NCBI RefSeq assembly: GCF_029873255.1 | Contig: NZ_CP123622.1 | Location: 3,199,001-3,263,000, forward strand | From: Pigmentibacter sp. JX0631 | GTDB lineage: Bacteria > Bdellovibrionota_B > Oligoflexia > Silvanigrellales > Silvanigrellaceae | Direction: 5' to 3' | Length of the DNA stretch: 64,000 bases | In this document: piece after piece, positions 1-4,718 of the stretch | How positions within the stretch are numbered: the first letter of the stretch is position 1 | How the letters are laid out: every line of letters begins with the position of its first letter | Program-made: the position numbers and the translations under genes | Notes under the pieces: model-generated | Seen by the model: the letters and a program-made list of their open reading frames with translations, nothing else | What the model was told of the DNA's origin: nothing | The model's database searches: none

Positions 1-436
1 CGGATAATTTTCCAATAGGAGTCTGTAAAAGTTCTTCTAATCTTAAGCCTAATGGTTTTAATGTTTCTTCAACAATATTTTCTGGAAAATTTTTAATAGC
101 ACTCTTAAAACCCGCAGTTTTTGATTTTAGCATAGCCATCGCTAAATTTTCGGCCACAGTCATTGTTGCTACTGAGCCCATGTGTGTATTTTGAAATACA
201 CGACTGATAAATTGTGCTCTTTTTGTTTCTGAAAGCTGTGTAATATCAGAACTATTGCGAAATATTTTACCTGAAGATGGTTTTATTCTGCCAGAAATAG
301 TATCTAAAAGAGTTGTTTTACCTGCTCCATTATGTCCTAAAATTAAAATAAAATCTTTTTCTTGAATTGTACAATTGATGTTACTTAGAGCTTTAAACTC
401 ACCAAAATTAACATGAACATTTTCTATCCGAATCAT
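1..436 (-). CDS. ABC transporter ATP-binding protein, amino-acid (TrpXYZ-like) type, 3' end outside window
   Basis: The ATPase subunit of the importer encoded by the next genes; it would couple ATP hydrolysis to substrate entry at the inner membrane. Only the first 145 residues lie in the window. It begins MIRIENVHVNFGEFKAL, with Walker A GHNGAGKTT at residues 34-42 and a Q-loop in the segment VFQNTHMGS. The signature and Walker B motifs are beyond the window edge. The ATG overlaps the stop of the upstream permease as ATGA, so the two are probably translationally coupled. The pairing with a COG4120-type permease and COG2984-type binding proteins points to the COG1101 (PhnK-like) ATPase family. 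The family is clear; the substrate is inferred from the leader peptides upstream. Confidence 0.9.
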   Translation of the reverse strand, partial: MIRIENVHVNFGEFKALSNINCTIQEKDFILILGHNGAGKTTLLDTISGRIKPSSGKIFRNSSDITQLSETKRAQFISRVFQNTHMGSVATMTVAENLAMAMLKSKTAGFKSAIKNFPENIVEETLKPLGLRLEELLQTPIGKLS

Positions 437-1290
437 TTAGCTTTAACTCCTTTAATGCTTTCCATTTTTTTAATGACAAGAATTAAAACAATAAGGAGGC
501 CGGTAATTAATTTTTGCCAAGAAGGTTCAACTTGTAATTCTATAGTTATTGCAATTAGTAATTGATATATTATTGAACCCATAATTGCCATTAAGAACAT
601 ATTTGCAGCAATCATTTCTGCAATCATACAGCCTGCTAAAGCAGCAATTAAAGTACCAACATTTCCAAAAGCAGAATAAAAGCCGCTATATTGTACAAAT
701 ATTCCACCTGCAAAAGCACTTAATGCATTGGCTAAAACTAATGATAAAGTGATATAAAAGGGAACACTTTTACCTAATGAAGTAACAAATTGTTCATTTA
801 CACCAGTTGAACGCAGTATAAAACCATTTTCAGTTTTCATGTACCAAATAAAGATAAATGCTGTTATTAAAGAAAGAGAAGCTAACAAGACAACAGAGCC
901 ATAGGAGAAAAAATGCAGAGAAGAAAATATTGTATGCGCATTTCCTAAAGCAACATTTGCTGTACCTATATTTATGCTTATGGAAAAAAGCATTGTTGTG
1001 ACAACGATACCTGCAATTAACTTATTTAATCCTAATTTCGTGTGCAGTAAACCAGTTATGCAACCAGAAAATCCGCCACTTATAACAGCAATGATCAATG
1101 CAAGCCAGGGATCAAAGTTATGGAGAATTGCCCAAGCAACTACAGCCCCACCCAAACCAAAAGTTCCTTCAATACTAAAGTCATCAAATTTCATTACTCT
1201 TGAAGCTAAGTAAATTGCCATAACTACAAATGAACCAATAAAACCACGCTCTAAAATTCCAATAACTACGGGTAAAATAGAAGAAGACAT
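433..1290 (-). CDS. ABC transporter permease, TrpY/COG4120 type (BPD_transp_2)
   Basis: Integral inner-membrane subunit of the importer, 285 residues with about eight hydrophobic segments. The overall character (Gly/Ala-rich helices, segments such as FGLGGAVVAWAI and LAGCMIAEMIAANMF) matches the branched-chain/ribose type permease superfamily in its COG4120 branch, known from TrpXYZ systems. The start is ATG, preceded by AGGA about 9 nt upstream. It lies 56 nt after the binding-protein gene on the same strand and its TGA overlaps the ATG of the ATPase. A small hairpin plus U-run in the 56-nt gap may lower its expression relative to the binding protein. The substrate cannot be read from the sequence. 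Confidence 0.88.
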   Translation of the reverse strand: MSSSILPVVIGILERGFIGSFVVMAIYLASRVMKFDDFSIEGTFGLGGAVVAWAILHNFDPWLALIIAVISGGFSGCITGLLHTKLGLNKLIAGIVVTTMLFSISINIGTANVALGNAHTIFSSLHFFSYGSVVLLASLSLITAFIFIWYMKTENGFILRSTGVNEQFVTSLGKSVPFYITLSLVLANALSAFAGGIFVQYSGFYSAFGNVGTLIAALAGCMIAEMIAANMFLMAIMGSIIYQLLIAITIELQVEPSWQKLITGLLIVLILVIKKMESIKGVKAK

Positions 1291-1346: not shown

Positions 1347-2300
1347 TTATAAAACAATCAATTCATTTTTCAAAGAATTGGGTAGTACTATATTTAAACG
1401 TTTAAGTTCGTACGAGTTGATAAATACTTTGCTGCTAGGTGAAATGACTTGTAACTCCATTGGTGGTATTCCTTTGTTTAAAATGCTTTTTAGTAAATCA
1501 GCTGCTTGCACTCCAGATTGAACATAATCAACTCCAAATTGCATAAATGGGGCATCTTTTTCGCCTGTCCAAGTTGTAATTAGCGGAATTTTTGCTTTAT
1601 CAGCTATTTGTTTAACTATAGGGAAAGCGGAAGCAATTGTATTATCTGTTGGAACAAGAACTGCTTGAGAGTTTAAAACAGCATTTTGTGTAGCGGCTGC
1701 AACATCTGCTTGACTATTTACTCCATTTTCCTGAAATTCAATACCTATTTTTGTTAGTTCTTCCTTCATTTTCTTTACTAAGAGCACCGAGTTGGTTTCT
1801 CCTGGATTATAAAGTAATGAAATTTTACGCAAATTAGGAATCAATTGTTTAATAATTGTTACTTGTTTTTCTACGTCTGCCATATCTGTTGCGCCCGTAA
1901 TATTTGAGCCAGGAAATCGTAAATGTTGCCCATCAGGATCTGTCACTGCCGCAAAAAGAATAGGTCTGTCCTTTATAACTGCTTTTAGAGCTTGAACGGC
2001 AGGGGTAGCTATTGCATAAAATGCTTTTATGTTTTCATTTGCTTTAAAGCTAGATGCAATGGCTTGTGCTTGTACTATAGATCCTTGCGCATTTTGCTCA
2101 ATTATGACTAATTTATCTCCGTATTCTTTCTTTAATTCTGATATAAATCCTTCTTTTGCTTCGTCTAAAGGAGGGAAAGATGCAAATTGTAAAATTCCAA
2201 TAGAAATTTGACTAGAATCAACTTTTTTACGTTTTAATAAAACAACTCCTGCTAAAATTGCTATAAGAATCGTAAATAATAAAATAATTTTTTTACTCAT
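1347..2300 (-). CDS. ABC transporter substrate-binding protein (ABC_sub_bind/COG2984), paralogue 1
   Basis: Periplasmic ligand-binding component, 317 residues. The N-terminus is a charged, strongly hydrophobic segment (MSKKIILLFTILIAILAG) followed by KRKK. There is no lipobox and no clear signal-peptidase site, so it may stay membrane-anchored. The body has the typical repeats of the TrpX-like family: ISIGILQFASFPPLDEA, EQNAQGSIVQAQAIASS, PILFAAVTDPDG, ILYNPGE, VLVPTDNTIASAFPIV and PFMQFGVDYVQSG. It has the same length as the protein at 2605-3558 and aligns almost without gaps, so the two are a tandem duplication. SD TTTGGAG lies 10 nt before the ATG. A short aromatic-rich ORF precedes it. 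An aromatic amino-acid ligand is inferred from that leader and from TrpXYZ relatives. Confidence 0.9.
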   Translation of the reverse strand: MSKKIILLFTILIAILAGVVLLKRKKVDSSQISIGILQFASFPPLDEAKEGFISELKKEYGDKLVIIEQNAQGSIVQAQAIASSFKANENIKAFYAIATPAVQALKAVIKDRPILFAAVTDPDGQHLRFPGSNITGATDMADVEKQVTIIKQLIPNLRKISLLYNPGETNSVLLVKKMKEELTKIGIEFQENGVNSQADVAAATQNAVLNSQAVLVPTDNTIASAFPIVKQIADKAKIPLITTWTGEKDAPFMQFGVDYVQSGVQAADLLKSILNKGIPPMELQVISPSSKVFINSYELKRLNIVLPNSLKNELIVL

Positions 2301-2384
2301 TTTTCAATTTCTCCAAATAATTTATTCTAATTTAAATTATAAGATTAATATAATTAATATTCAATTTTTGAAAAGGGGAATATT

Positions 2385-2495
2385 TTAAAAATAAAATCGA
2401 TAGGCAAAATAGAAGCTAAAAAATGTGGATGACGTTAAAAATAAAGTGTTTCGTTGTTGTCGATTTTTAAGAAGTACTTTTAATAACGTTTCCAT
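2385..2495 (-). CDS. Candidate Phe/Tyr-rich leader peptide upstream of binding protein 1
   Basis: A 36-residue ORF from ATG at 2495, with SD GGAG six nt upstream; an in-frame ATG at 2507 would give 40 residues but has no SD. The N-terminal half is basic and amphipathic (METLLKVLLKNRQQRNTLF). The last 12 residues are FFSFYFAYRFYF, nine of them aromatic (six Phe, three Tyr). This resembles the design of attenuator leaders such as E. coli pheL. The end aligns with the second leader at 3646-3747 (FFSFYFAY versus YYSYYLAY), and the DNA shares GCCTAT followed by CGA here and TGA there. TCCACAT just before the Phe codons pairs partly with the downstream SD region ATTTGGA (six of seven). AT-rich DNA favours TTT and TAT codons, so expression is not proven. 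Confidence 0.6.
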   Translation of the reverse strand: METLLKVLLKNRQQRNTLFLTSSTFFSFYFAYRFYF

Positions 2496-2500
2496 GATAC

Positions 2501-2601
2501 GCTCCATATTTGCAAGATCTAGGCTTAGTAGAGATATTAACTACAGACCAGACGGAGCTAGTTTAACTAATATCTCTTCTTAATGCAAGAGTTAAATATG
2601 G
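2501..2601 (-). promoter_or_regulatory. Structured RNA element ahead of leader 1 (nested inverted repeats that can mask its RBS)
   Basis: Between the stop of paralogue 2 and leader 1 there is an outer inverted repeat, CCATATTT (2594-2601 on the minus strand) with AAATATGG (2504-2511), and a perfect inner 10-bp stem, AGAGATATTA with TAATATCTCT (2530-2539 and 2568-2577). The outer stem contains the first ATG and the GG of the leader SD. In the loop, GCTCC (minus strand, 2554-2558) is also a perfect complement of the SD GGAGC at 2501-2505. No U-run follows, so it is not a simple terminator. Its role as an RBS-masking or stability element is inferred. Confidence 0.5.
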
Positions 2602-2604
2602 AAA

Positions 2605-3558
2605 TTACAATAAAGTAACAGAGTTTTTAATATTTTCTGGTAAAATGACATTGTATTTTTTTAATTCTAGGGAGTTAATATATATTTTACTACTTGGGGA
2701 AATAAACTCTAATTCTGCTGGTTTTTTTCCTTCTAAAAGTATTGATCTTAATAAGTTAGCTGCTTGAATGCCTGATTGAGTATAGTCGACGCCAAATTGC
2801 ATAAGAGGAGGGTCTTTTTCGTTTGTACCAGTTGTAATTAAAGGAATTTTAGCTTTATCAGCAATTTGTCTTACAATAGGAAAAGCTGATGAAATTGTAT
2901 TGTCTGTTGGCACTAAAACAGCTTGCGCATTCTGAGTTGCATTTTGAACTGCTGCAGCAACATCTGCTTGACTATTTGCGCCGACATCAAGAGCTTTTAT
3001 ATTATATTTAAATAATTCTTCCTTCATTTTTTTTACTTGAATTGTAGAATTTGATTCAGCTGGATTATATAATATTGCTATTTTATTTATGTTAGGAAGT
3101 AACGACCTTAATATTTCAATTTGTTCAGCGATATCTGCCATATCTGTTGCGCCCGTGATGTTTGTTTCAGGGGAATTTAAATTTAAACCAACAGGATCGG
3201 TGACAGCAGCAAAAATAATAGGTCTGTCTTTTATTTCTGCTTTTAAAGCCATAACCGATGGTGTGGCAATAGCATAAAAAGCTTTTATATTTTGGTTTGC
3301 TTTGAAACTTGAAGCTATTGCTTGTGCTTGCACTACTGAGCCTTGTGCATTTTGTTCAATGAATTTAATATTATTACCAAGTTCTTTTTTTGTTTGTTCC
3401 ATAAAACCTATTCGAGCTTCATCTAATGCAGGAAAAGATGCAAACTGTAAAATTCCAATGGTTATTTCATCGGGATTTTGTTTCATTCTATTCATTAAGA
3501 CAACAGCTAATAAAATGATTATTAATGAACTAATTAATAAAATACTTTTTTTATTCAT
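2605..3558 (-). CDS. ABC transporter substrate-binding protein (ABC_sub_bind/COG2984), paralogue 2
   Basis: Second periplasmic binding protein, also 317 residues. An N-terminal hydrophobic segment (MNKKSILLISSLIIILLAVVLM) is followed by NRMK, again without a lipobox. Shared family blocks include ITIGILQFASFPALDEA, EQNAQGSVVQAQAIASS, IIFAAVTDPVG, VLVPTDNTISSAFPIV and PLMQFGVDYTQSG. Compared with paralogue 1, differences sit around the ligand-contact regions (for example GTNEKDPPL versus WTGEKDAPF), so the two may differ in specificity. SD TTGGAGTA ends 4 nt before the ATG. The leader ORF at 3646-3747 contains the exact complement of this SD. Both binding proteins would feed the single permease and ATPase downstream. 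Confidence 0.9.
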   Translation of the reverse strand: MNKKSILLISSLIIILLAVVLMNRMKQNPDEITIGILQFASFPALDEARIGFMEQTKKELGNNIKFIEQNAQGSVVQAQAIASSFKANQNIKAFYAIATPSVMALKAEIKDRPIIFAAVTDPVGLNLNSPETNITGATDMADIAEQIEILRSLLPNINKIAILYNPAESNSTIQVKKMKEELFKYNIKALDVGANSQADVAAAVQNATQNAQAVLVPTDNTISSAFPIVRQIADKAKIPLITTGTNEKDPPLMQFGVDYTQSGIQAANLLRSILLEGKKPAELEFISPSSKIYINSLELKKYNVILPENIKNSVTLL

Positions 3559-3561
3559 TTG

Positions 3562-3685
3562 TACTCCAATTTAAATTTTAAATGAAAATTTCATTCAGAA
3601 TTTTAGATTAATATTAAATTTTAAGCAATGAGAAAAGTTTAAGAATCAATAGGCTAGATAATAAGAATAATAAGATTTTGGAGTA
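3562..3685 (-). promoter_or_regulatory. SD and anti-SD pair: candidate translational attenuator of binding protein 2
   Basis: On the minus strand the leader contains TACTCCAA at 3678-3685. The SD region of the binding-protein gene is TTGGAGTA at 3562-3569. The eight bases are perfect complements. The anti-SD ends 5 nt before the first Tyr codon (3670-3672). A ribosome waiting at the Tyr codons should cover the anti-SD and free the downstream SD. A ribosome that finishes the leader would let the two pair. Complementarity and positions are seen; the mechanism is inferred. Confidence 0.55.
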
Positions 3686-3747
3686 GTTTTTGCTATTTTA
3701 TTTTGTTTGAGTTTATGAACAATATCTCGAAATAATTTTACTAGCAT
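3646..3747 (-). CDS. Candidate Tyr-rich leader peptide upstream of binding protein 2
   Basis: A 33-residue ORF with ATG at 3747 and a GGAG SD seven nt upstream (CGGAGTTTGTTATG). The N-terminus is basic (MLVKLFRDIVHKLKQNK) and the C-terminus is TTPKSYYSYYLAY; five of the last eight residues are Tyr. It ends 87 nt before the ATG of the binding-protein gene. The C-terminus aligns with leader 1 (TSST-FFSFYFAY). The presence of the same design ahead of each of two duplicated genes argues against chance. No G+C-rich terminator hairpin lies between it and the gene; instead the leader holds a perfect anti-SD, so control at translation is more likely than transcription termination. Not previously known to me. 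Confidence 0.68.
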   Translation of the reverse strand: MLVKLFRDIVHKLKQNKIAKTTPKSYYSYYLAY

Positions 3748-3800
3748 AACAAACTCCGAAAAATATCTAAACAAAGTAACTTGTTAATTTTGTTTAGAAG

Positions 3801-3829
3801 AAAAAATAAAAAACCCAAAAAAGTTTTTT
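3801..3829 (-). terminator. Weak terminator-like hairpin downstream of lexA
   Basis: Read on the minus strand, AAAAAAC and GTTTTTT flank TTTTTTGG and are followed by ATTTTTT. The stem has seven pairs but only one G-C pair. It lies between the lexA stop and leader 2 and could end the lexA transcript. Confidence 0.35.
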
Positions 3830-3900
3830 ACGAATGCAAGATGAGGATATAACTAAAAGGCTTTAAGTGCAACCCAAAATCAATATTGCGAGCGCTAAAG

Positions 3901-4698
3901 TTAAAAAATATTTTTTCGGTAAAGAGATCTTACTACTCCAATAATTTTGTCATCAGAATGATTACCAAAAGGAATTGGTAAATAATCAGGGTTTTCTGGA
4001 ATTAGAATAGCATTAGGTAATTGCAGATCAGCTTCAAGCGAATTGATTAAAAAAGAGATATTTTTTTCATATTGAAAAGAGCCTTTTTTTGCAAATCTTT
4101 TGATTGTCGTTTCTGAATAACCTAATGCAGCAACAACAATGTCATTGTCTTTTGCTTCTGAACAAAGCTCTACTAGCACAATATCCTTTGGTAAAAGGCC
4201 GGCGTGTAGCATGCTAAGTCCTTCAATTTCAAGAGCAAATAGTTTACTAGCTTTATTTTTTGCTATGTTTGGAAAAGAAATATAATCACCAGAGGACTCA
4301 ATTGCTTCATGTGGAGAACCAGCTGCTACTCGACCTATCAATGGAACCCGAACGGAATTCTCGAACCCTGGTAAAACATGATCAGTATTAGTCATGAAAT
4401 TTTGCGTTTGTGAACTGGACCCGTTTTTTTTTGTCGGGACAAGGTGGCTCTGAGAATAGTATTGGTAAAAATATTCGCTAACTTCTTTTGTAGGAACAAT
4501 TTGTCTGGATTTACCAGGTACATTGCTTAATAATAACCCTTTTTTTCTTAGGGCTGCAATGACATCTTGCGCACTACCAATTGATTTCCAATTAAAGTAA
4601 CTTGCTATTTCTCTAATGGTAGGCGGAGTTCCAGTAGCATCCATATGGTTAAAAATAAAATCCATTACTTTAAATTGTGCACTTGTTAACTCAACCAT
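3901..4698 (-). CDS. lexA: LexA-type SOS repressor with S24 autoprotease domain
   Basis: Transcriptional repressor that self-cleaves on contact with RecA filaments. I start it at ATG 4698 (MVELTSAQFKVMDF), which has GAGG six nt upstream; a TTG 12 nt further up would give 269 instead of 265 residues. Residues 1-65 form the winged helix (PTIREIASYFNWKSIGSAQDVI). A longer than usual linker (about 70-115) leads to the peptidase domain. The Ala-Gly cleavage site is in VAAGSP (A126-G127), the Ser is in GLSM (S162) and the Lys is in TTIKRF (K200). The spacings (36 and 38) are close to those of E. coli LexA. A perfect palindrome 21 nt upstream of the start suggests autoregulation. It is longer than typical LexA (about 200) because of the linker. 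Confidence 0.88.
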   Translation of the reverse strand: MVELTSAQFKVMDFIFNHMDATGTPPTIREIASYFNWKSIGSAQDVIAALRKKGLLLSNVPGKSRQIVPTKEVSEYFYQYYSQSHLVPTKKNGSSSQTQNFMTNTDHVLPGFENSVRVPLIGRVAAGSPHEAIESSGDYISFPNIAKNKASKLFALEIEGLSMLHAGLLPKDIVLVELCSEAKDNDIVVAALGYSETTIKRFAKKGSFQYEKNISFLINSLEADLQLPNAILIPENPDYLPIPFGNHSDDKIIGVVRSLYRKNIF

Positions 4699-4718
4699 AG
4701 GAAGCCTCAAAAGAAAAA

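Follow-up and report, generated by a model that had tools for sequence, protein, structure and literature searches.

Tyr- and Phe-rich leader peptides precede TrpX-type binding-protein genes in Silvanigrellaceae and may act as Rho-dependent attenuators

In the classical attenuators pheL-pheA, trpL and hisL, the regulated genes are immediately preceded by a short leader ORF in which codons for the regulated amino acid form a run. In tnaC-tnaAB, Rho is coupled to an upstream ORF that senses free Trp. Upstream ORF-coupled Rho control is also known from toiL-topAI, which senses antibiotics (PMC12121999). The cys operons of mycobacteria carry cysteine leaders without a conserved terminator hairpin; Rho has been suggested to act there, and polypyrimidine motifs are found past the leader (PMC1262725). 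Streptococcus trpXYZ is preceded by a T-box (PMC9382623). This T-box was the only regulation found for the TrpXYZ-type transporter family in the literature searched, which covers few subscription papers and in which searches for leader peptides of this family gave no result.

The leaders described here resemble those of pheL-pheA, trpL and hisL in that they are short, contain a codon run and lie just upstream of genes. They differ in the lack of terminator and antiterminator hairpins, in their target (the binding-protein gene of a transporter), in the position of the codons at the extreme C-terminus and in a structured stretch that lies upstream of the leader and not downstream. As in tnaC-tnaAB and toiL-topAI, we propose that the position of the leader ribosome decides on Rho-dependent termination, but the proposed signal is codon supply and not free Trp or an antibiotic. 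Like the mycobacterial cys leaders, they combine a codon run with the absence of a terminator hairpin; however, they concern Tyr/Phe and uptake in an unrelated lineage instead of Cys and biosynthesis (PMC1262725), and most of their copies conserve a C-rich motif after the leader. With the streptococcal T-box they share the transporter family and, as proposed here, a response to tRNA charging with an aromatic amino acid. A T-box, however, is an RNA that binds tRNA and carries an intrinsic terminator (PMC9382623); neither a T-box nor any other Rfam family matches the window at gathering score.

The window is a stretch of 64,000 nucleotides from Pigmentibacter sp. JX0631 (contig NZ_CP123622.1). 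An earlier note on this DNA had described two short ORFs with ribosome sites, one before each of two paralogous binding-protein genes, and both are present as claimed. All parts of the locus are on the minus strand, and their order along transcription is miaA, lexA, a promoter-like site, leader ORF2, BP2, a promoter-like site, leader ORF1, BP1, permease and ATPase. In most copies of the locus, lexA (3901..4710) directly precedes the transporter operon (window 3901-4710 and L015-L019). Between lexA and leader ORF2 lie the promoter-like sequence TTGCAC-17-TATCCT (3844..3872), an A/T-rich hairpin with a T run (GTAAAAAACTTTTTTGGGTTTTTTATTTTTTC, 3800-3831), which is kept in G012 and is perhaps the lexA terminator, and the hairpin CTAAACAAA...TTTGTTTAG (3767..3797) in the 5' leader of ORF2. 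Leader ORF2 (3646..3747, 33 codons, tail SYYSYYLAY) has GGAG just upstream, encodes the peptide MLVKLFRDIVHKLKQNKIAKTTPKSYYSYYLAY up to its stop codon and precedes BP2 (2605..3558). The promoter-like sequence TTGCAT-17-TAAACT (2560..2588) is followed by leader ORF1 (2385..2495, 36 codons, tail FFSFYFAYRFYF), which also has GGAG just upstream, encodes METLLKVLLKNRQQRNTLFLTSSTFFSFYFAYRFYF up to its stop codon and precedes BP1 (1347..2300). For ORF1, the second ATG (2495) is the most likely start, because the one at 2507 overlaps with its own GGAG and, in the closest relative, is not in frame. The permease gene (BPD_transp_2, 433..1290) is next to that of the ATPase, which runs off the window start.

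Leader ORFs of this kind rarely arise by chance. Dinucleotide shuffles of each region were scored for an ORF of 28-42 codons with an ATG, a Shine-Dalgarno site and at least five Phe or Tyr residues in the last 15 codons; such an ORF appeared in 0-0.13% of shuffles (about 0.001 per copy), yet it is found in every copy examined. Upstream of each leader, at a distance of 64-96 nt, is a promoter-like TTGCNN-N17-TANNNT with a spacing of exactly 17 nt in all ten copies, a pattern that arises in 1.5-8% of shuffles per copy. The locus therefore has the leader ORF with a ribosome site and several codons of the presumed regulated amino acid that characterize a classical attenuator.

Among 15 genomes of the order, close homologues occur in seven, all of one genus, and the rest of the phylum holds distant family members of the binding protein only. 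The succession of promoter-like site, leader ORF and binding-protein gene is present in ten copies, covering all seven Silvanigrellaceae genomes that carry the operon, with leaders of 33-37 codons and 5-9 Tyr/Phe codons among the last 15. The absence from close relatives that the earlier note had named as a refutation is thus not observed: orthologous leaders are present in G012, G011, G010, G014, G008 and G009. G012 has two, which resemble the window's pair, and G014 has MQTKIRSKVIQRETQLSSPLSSSCVTSYFTNRFYFFF and MHTNIGFIETERNFQFSLPFSSARKSSYLAYRYYFFF; the leader of G011 is MKANLELKLSNRHQQTCLINASFSFYASYFAYRFYF, that of G010 is MQTKIRSKVIQRNTQLSSPLSSSCTTSYFTYRFYFFF and that of G008/G009 is MLTRPPVLLRSLIHNIKRNISTSLMSSYFAYRFYY. 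Orthologous loci are known in Spirobacillus cienkowskii and Fluviispira multicolorata, which correspond to G008 and G010. The only close homologue without a leader ORF is that of the second tandem operon in G010. A degenerate leader motif searched across the order gives one match per genome, at this locus and in this genus only, and the viral contigs searched give none. Before pheS, phhA, the PDT gene and distant COG2984 relatives, no convincing similar leader with a good Shine-Dalgarno site was found. Several genus members (L044-L051) have a conserved ATTGCTATTTA...AGTCAG.ATATAA upstream of pheS, where the search for an aromatic leader with a Shine-Dalgarno site was negative.

Duplication of leader and gene as a unit, as previously suggested, is plausible, and in G014 the whole operon has been duplicated with its leader; the window's own duplication is left undated by the gene tree, the supports of which are too low. 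Fluviispira multicolorata (L016 5362-7900, 7981-10513) carries the whole transporter operon in two tandem copies with identical permeases. Its second copy has lost the leader and retained the post-stop TTCC element, and its two binding proteins differ, one having Trp and the other Gly at the pocket position discussed below.

Leader and spacer are under strong constraint, as they are more conserved than silent sites of the binding-protein genes: between G000 and G012, identity is 89-92% in the leaders and 92-96% in the leader-to-gene spacers, compared with 62% at third positions of BP1/BP2. In the G000/G012 leader pairs, third positions are not more variable than first and second ones and codon periodicity is absent, and hence part of the constraint acts at the nucleotide level. 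Between G010 and G014, leader differences by codon position are 3, 1 and 8 (p=0.019) and are thus concentrated at third positions, and two extra Phe codons of this group are in frame. Across species, the aromatic codons differ synonymously, so that Tyr and Phe are kept while the DNA varies, as the earlier note had asked. The C-terminus is conserved as SY[FL]xYR[FY]Y with a nearly invariant Arg; the N-terminus is not conserved. The reported difference between GCC-TAT-CGA in one leader and GCC-TAT-TGA in the other is real. GCC and CGA are retained in most copies, even though they are minority codons here (9% and 13%), and tRNA sensing alone does not account for the conservation of GCC and of the Arg codon.

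At the RNA level, there are no terminator-like sites on either strand between 1300 and 4000, and a GC-rich hairpin with a T-run between leader and gene is absent from every copy. RNAalifold detects no structure common to all nine sequences and weak structures when subsets are used, a sample so small that a divergent structure could escape it. Since neither a terminator nor conserved alternative hairpins are found, the locus lacks the structure that defines classical attenuation; the proposed likeness to pheL and trpL holds for the leader peptides and their conserved Tyr/Phe runs, but it does not extend to the RNA. The hairpin of the 5' leader of ORF2 shows a single double compensatory change, from C-G to T-A in the orthologue of G012, and is located upstream of the leader ORF. 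A pairing of GCCTATC with GATAYGG of the leader Shine-Dalgarno site, identified by eye, fits several copies and was rejected because it fails in G014a.

All copies have an excess of C over G of 11-20 per 120 nt across leader end and spacer, whereas coding windows average -5 and reach 12 in 0.5% of cases; the C bias of the copies stems partly from Phe, Tyr and Ser codons, and the excess in the spacer alone is modest (other spacers: mean -0.16, sd 4.3). In the window, 21 C and 4 G in 120 nt span the end of ORF2 and its spacer (3598..3717), and 23 C and 7 G in 120 nt cover the distal half of ORF1 and its spacer (2355..2474), a candidate Rho-loading region. A G-free run of 19-58 nt extends past each leader stop. 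The post-stop element A(T)TCCYYTT is present in the Phe/Tyr leaders and degenerate after ORF2; just past the ORF1 stop, the conserved C-rich element is ATTCCCCTTTTC (2370..2381). Rho is found in all eight genomes.

BP1 and BP2 belong to PF04392 (E 1.6e-56 and 1.6e-54, respectively) and share 67% identity, and both family profile and aromatic-ligand pocket identify them as TrpX-type aromatic amino-acid binding proteins. Both score well below the cutoff of the NCBIfam TrpX equivalog (NF041285 for BP1), and we therefore do not claim Trp as the ligand. The closest solved relatives, 3LKV, 6HNI and 3LFT, have Phe, Tyr and Trp bound. Clostridioides difficile CD0873, Vibrio cholerae VC_1101 and Streptococcus pneumoniae SP1069 belong to the same family and were solved with Tyr, Phe and Trp bound, and two selectivity residues have been named in the work on CD0873 (PMC6816091). 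The first is Glu263 in CD0873 and Ala246 in VC_1101; the second is Tyr279 in CD0873, which excludes Trp, and Gln in the Trp binder (PMC6816091). All ten proteins of the present set have Tyr at the second position, which argues against Trp as ligand. At the first (residue 244), where those proteins have Glu or Ala, six of the ten have Trp and four have Gly. BP1 has Trp244 and BP2 has Gly244 according to the column analysis, and genomes with two copies always combine the two types. This difference between the two binding proteins is new. Of about 317 columns, three distinguish the Gly class from the Trp class, two of them at the first selectivity site. Gly244 may give room for Tyr and Trp244 may favour Phe, and we predict from these residues a preference for Tyr in the Gly244 class and for Phe, or for both, in the Trp244 class. 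A further, distant TrpX-type binding protein (G014:C7:32928-33812, L013) has Glu at the selectivity position, like Tyr-binding CD0873, and no such leader ahead of it.

We compared the pocket classes with the Phe/Tyr counts in the last 12 leader residues. These are 0/5, 0/5 and 3/4 for Gly-type leaders and 6/3, 6/3, 4/4, 5/3, 5/2 and 2/4 for Trp-type leaders, and the Gly-type leader is the Tyr-richer one in all three genomes with two leaders. The single copy of S. cienkowskii is of the Trp type, yet its leader tail has 4 Tyr and 2 Phe. As there are two independent duplication lineages at most, the apparent link between leader and pocket is a trend only. The earlier suggestion of Tyr sensing by one leader and mixed Phe/Tyr sensing by the other thus agrees with the split in codons and gains a matching split in the pockets, while sensing itself is a prediction.

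Of eight genus members, only the window's own genome and one other have prephenate dehydratase; prephenate dehydrogenase is either missing or scores below cutoff in each of the eight, with positive control searches. Given these missing enzymes, most members must depend on imported Phe, and every member must either take up Tyr or synthesize it from Phe. Phenylalanine hydroxylase is found in six of the eight.

We consider it rather probable that translated leader peptides gauge how much charged tRNA-Tyr and tRNA-Phe is available, with Rho as the favoured gate on transcription of the binding-protein genes. Here, the leaders would be translated and ribosomes would stall on them, the ORF2 tail reading Tyr only and ORF1 reading Phe and Tyr. 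If the amino acid that a leader reads is short, the ribosome would stall on the aromatic codons at the extreme end of the leader and mask the C-rich, G-poor RNA around and just past the stop, including the (T)TCC of the Phe/Tyr leaders, so that transcription could proceed into the binding-protein and transporter genes. If it is ample, the ribosome would finish and depart, and Rho could load on the bare RNA and stop transcription early. The two leaders would allow separate control of two binding proteins with predicted different aromatic preferences. Rho-dependent termination gated by the leader ribosome appears the most likely mechanism; taken alone, this translation-gated step is possible rather than probable.

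The conserved C-terminus with its near-invariant Arg, the variable N-terminus and the tight length of 33-37 codons would also suit nascent-chain arrest, in which the SY[FL]xYR[FY]Y end acts in the ribosome tunnel like TnaC and senses the free amino acid and not tRNA charging. However, the distance from motif to stop varies, ORF2 keeps just YYSYYLAY without the Arg, and TnaC-type induction by excess amino acid fits breakdown genes and not uptake, which makes arrest unlikely. In translational attenuation, the Shine-Dalgarno site of the binding-protein gene would be paired with the leader end until a stalled ribosome frees it. The window's ORF2 copy does have a perfect complement of this kind, between TACTCCAA and TTGGAGTA at the start of BP2 (p=0.013 relative to shuffles), but this is the only copy that pairs better than shuffles (p 0.37-0.97 in the others), also when the Shine-Dalgarno site of the leader is considered. 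The partners differ among copies, and pairing is weaker in the ORF2 orthologue of G012; we regard this mechanism as quite unlikely.

The G000/G012 pairs, which are strongly conserved in their nucleotides and show no codon periodicity, could also reflect a DNA operator or promoter of the binding-protein gene, with the ORF incidental, and the ORF1-BP1 spacer contains a 10/12 promoter match, TTGAAT-17-TATAAT (2336..2364). This site is not clearly conserved beyond G000/G012, its -10-like part being lost in other species, and ORF, ATG, Shine-Dalgarno site and aromatic codons persist where the DNA differs, and the extra Phe codons are in frame. We consider an operator improbable. That the ORFs encode small functional proteins, such as transporter-associated peptides, is highly improbable: most copies combine a basic N-terminal part with an aromatic C-terminus, but the N-terminal two thirds are not conserved between species, the ORFs match no family, and one tandem copy kept its transporter and lost the leader ORF.

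The Rho-dependent attenuator can be extended to a fuller reading, in which it senses Tyr/Phe codon supply, the leader codons co-evolve with the pocket (Gly244 or Trp244) and the Tyr/Phe make-up of the leader matches the ligand; this reading is tentative and, as a whole, somewhat unlikely. If true, leader codons would report transporter specificity and could predict the ligands of uncharacterised transporters. The locus would then represent a natural experiment on the joint divergence of regulator and binding pocket after duplication, and Silvanigrellaceae would use leader-peptide sensing without hairpin terminators.
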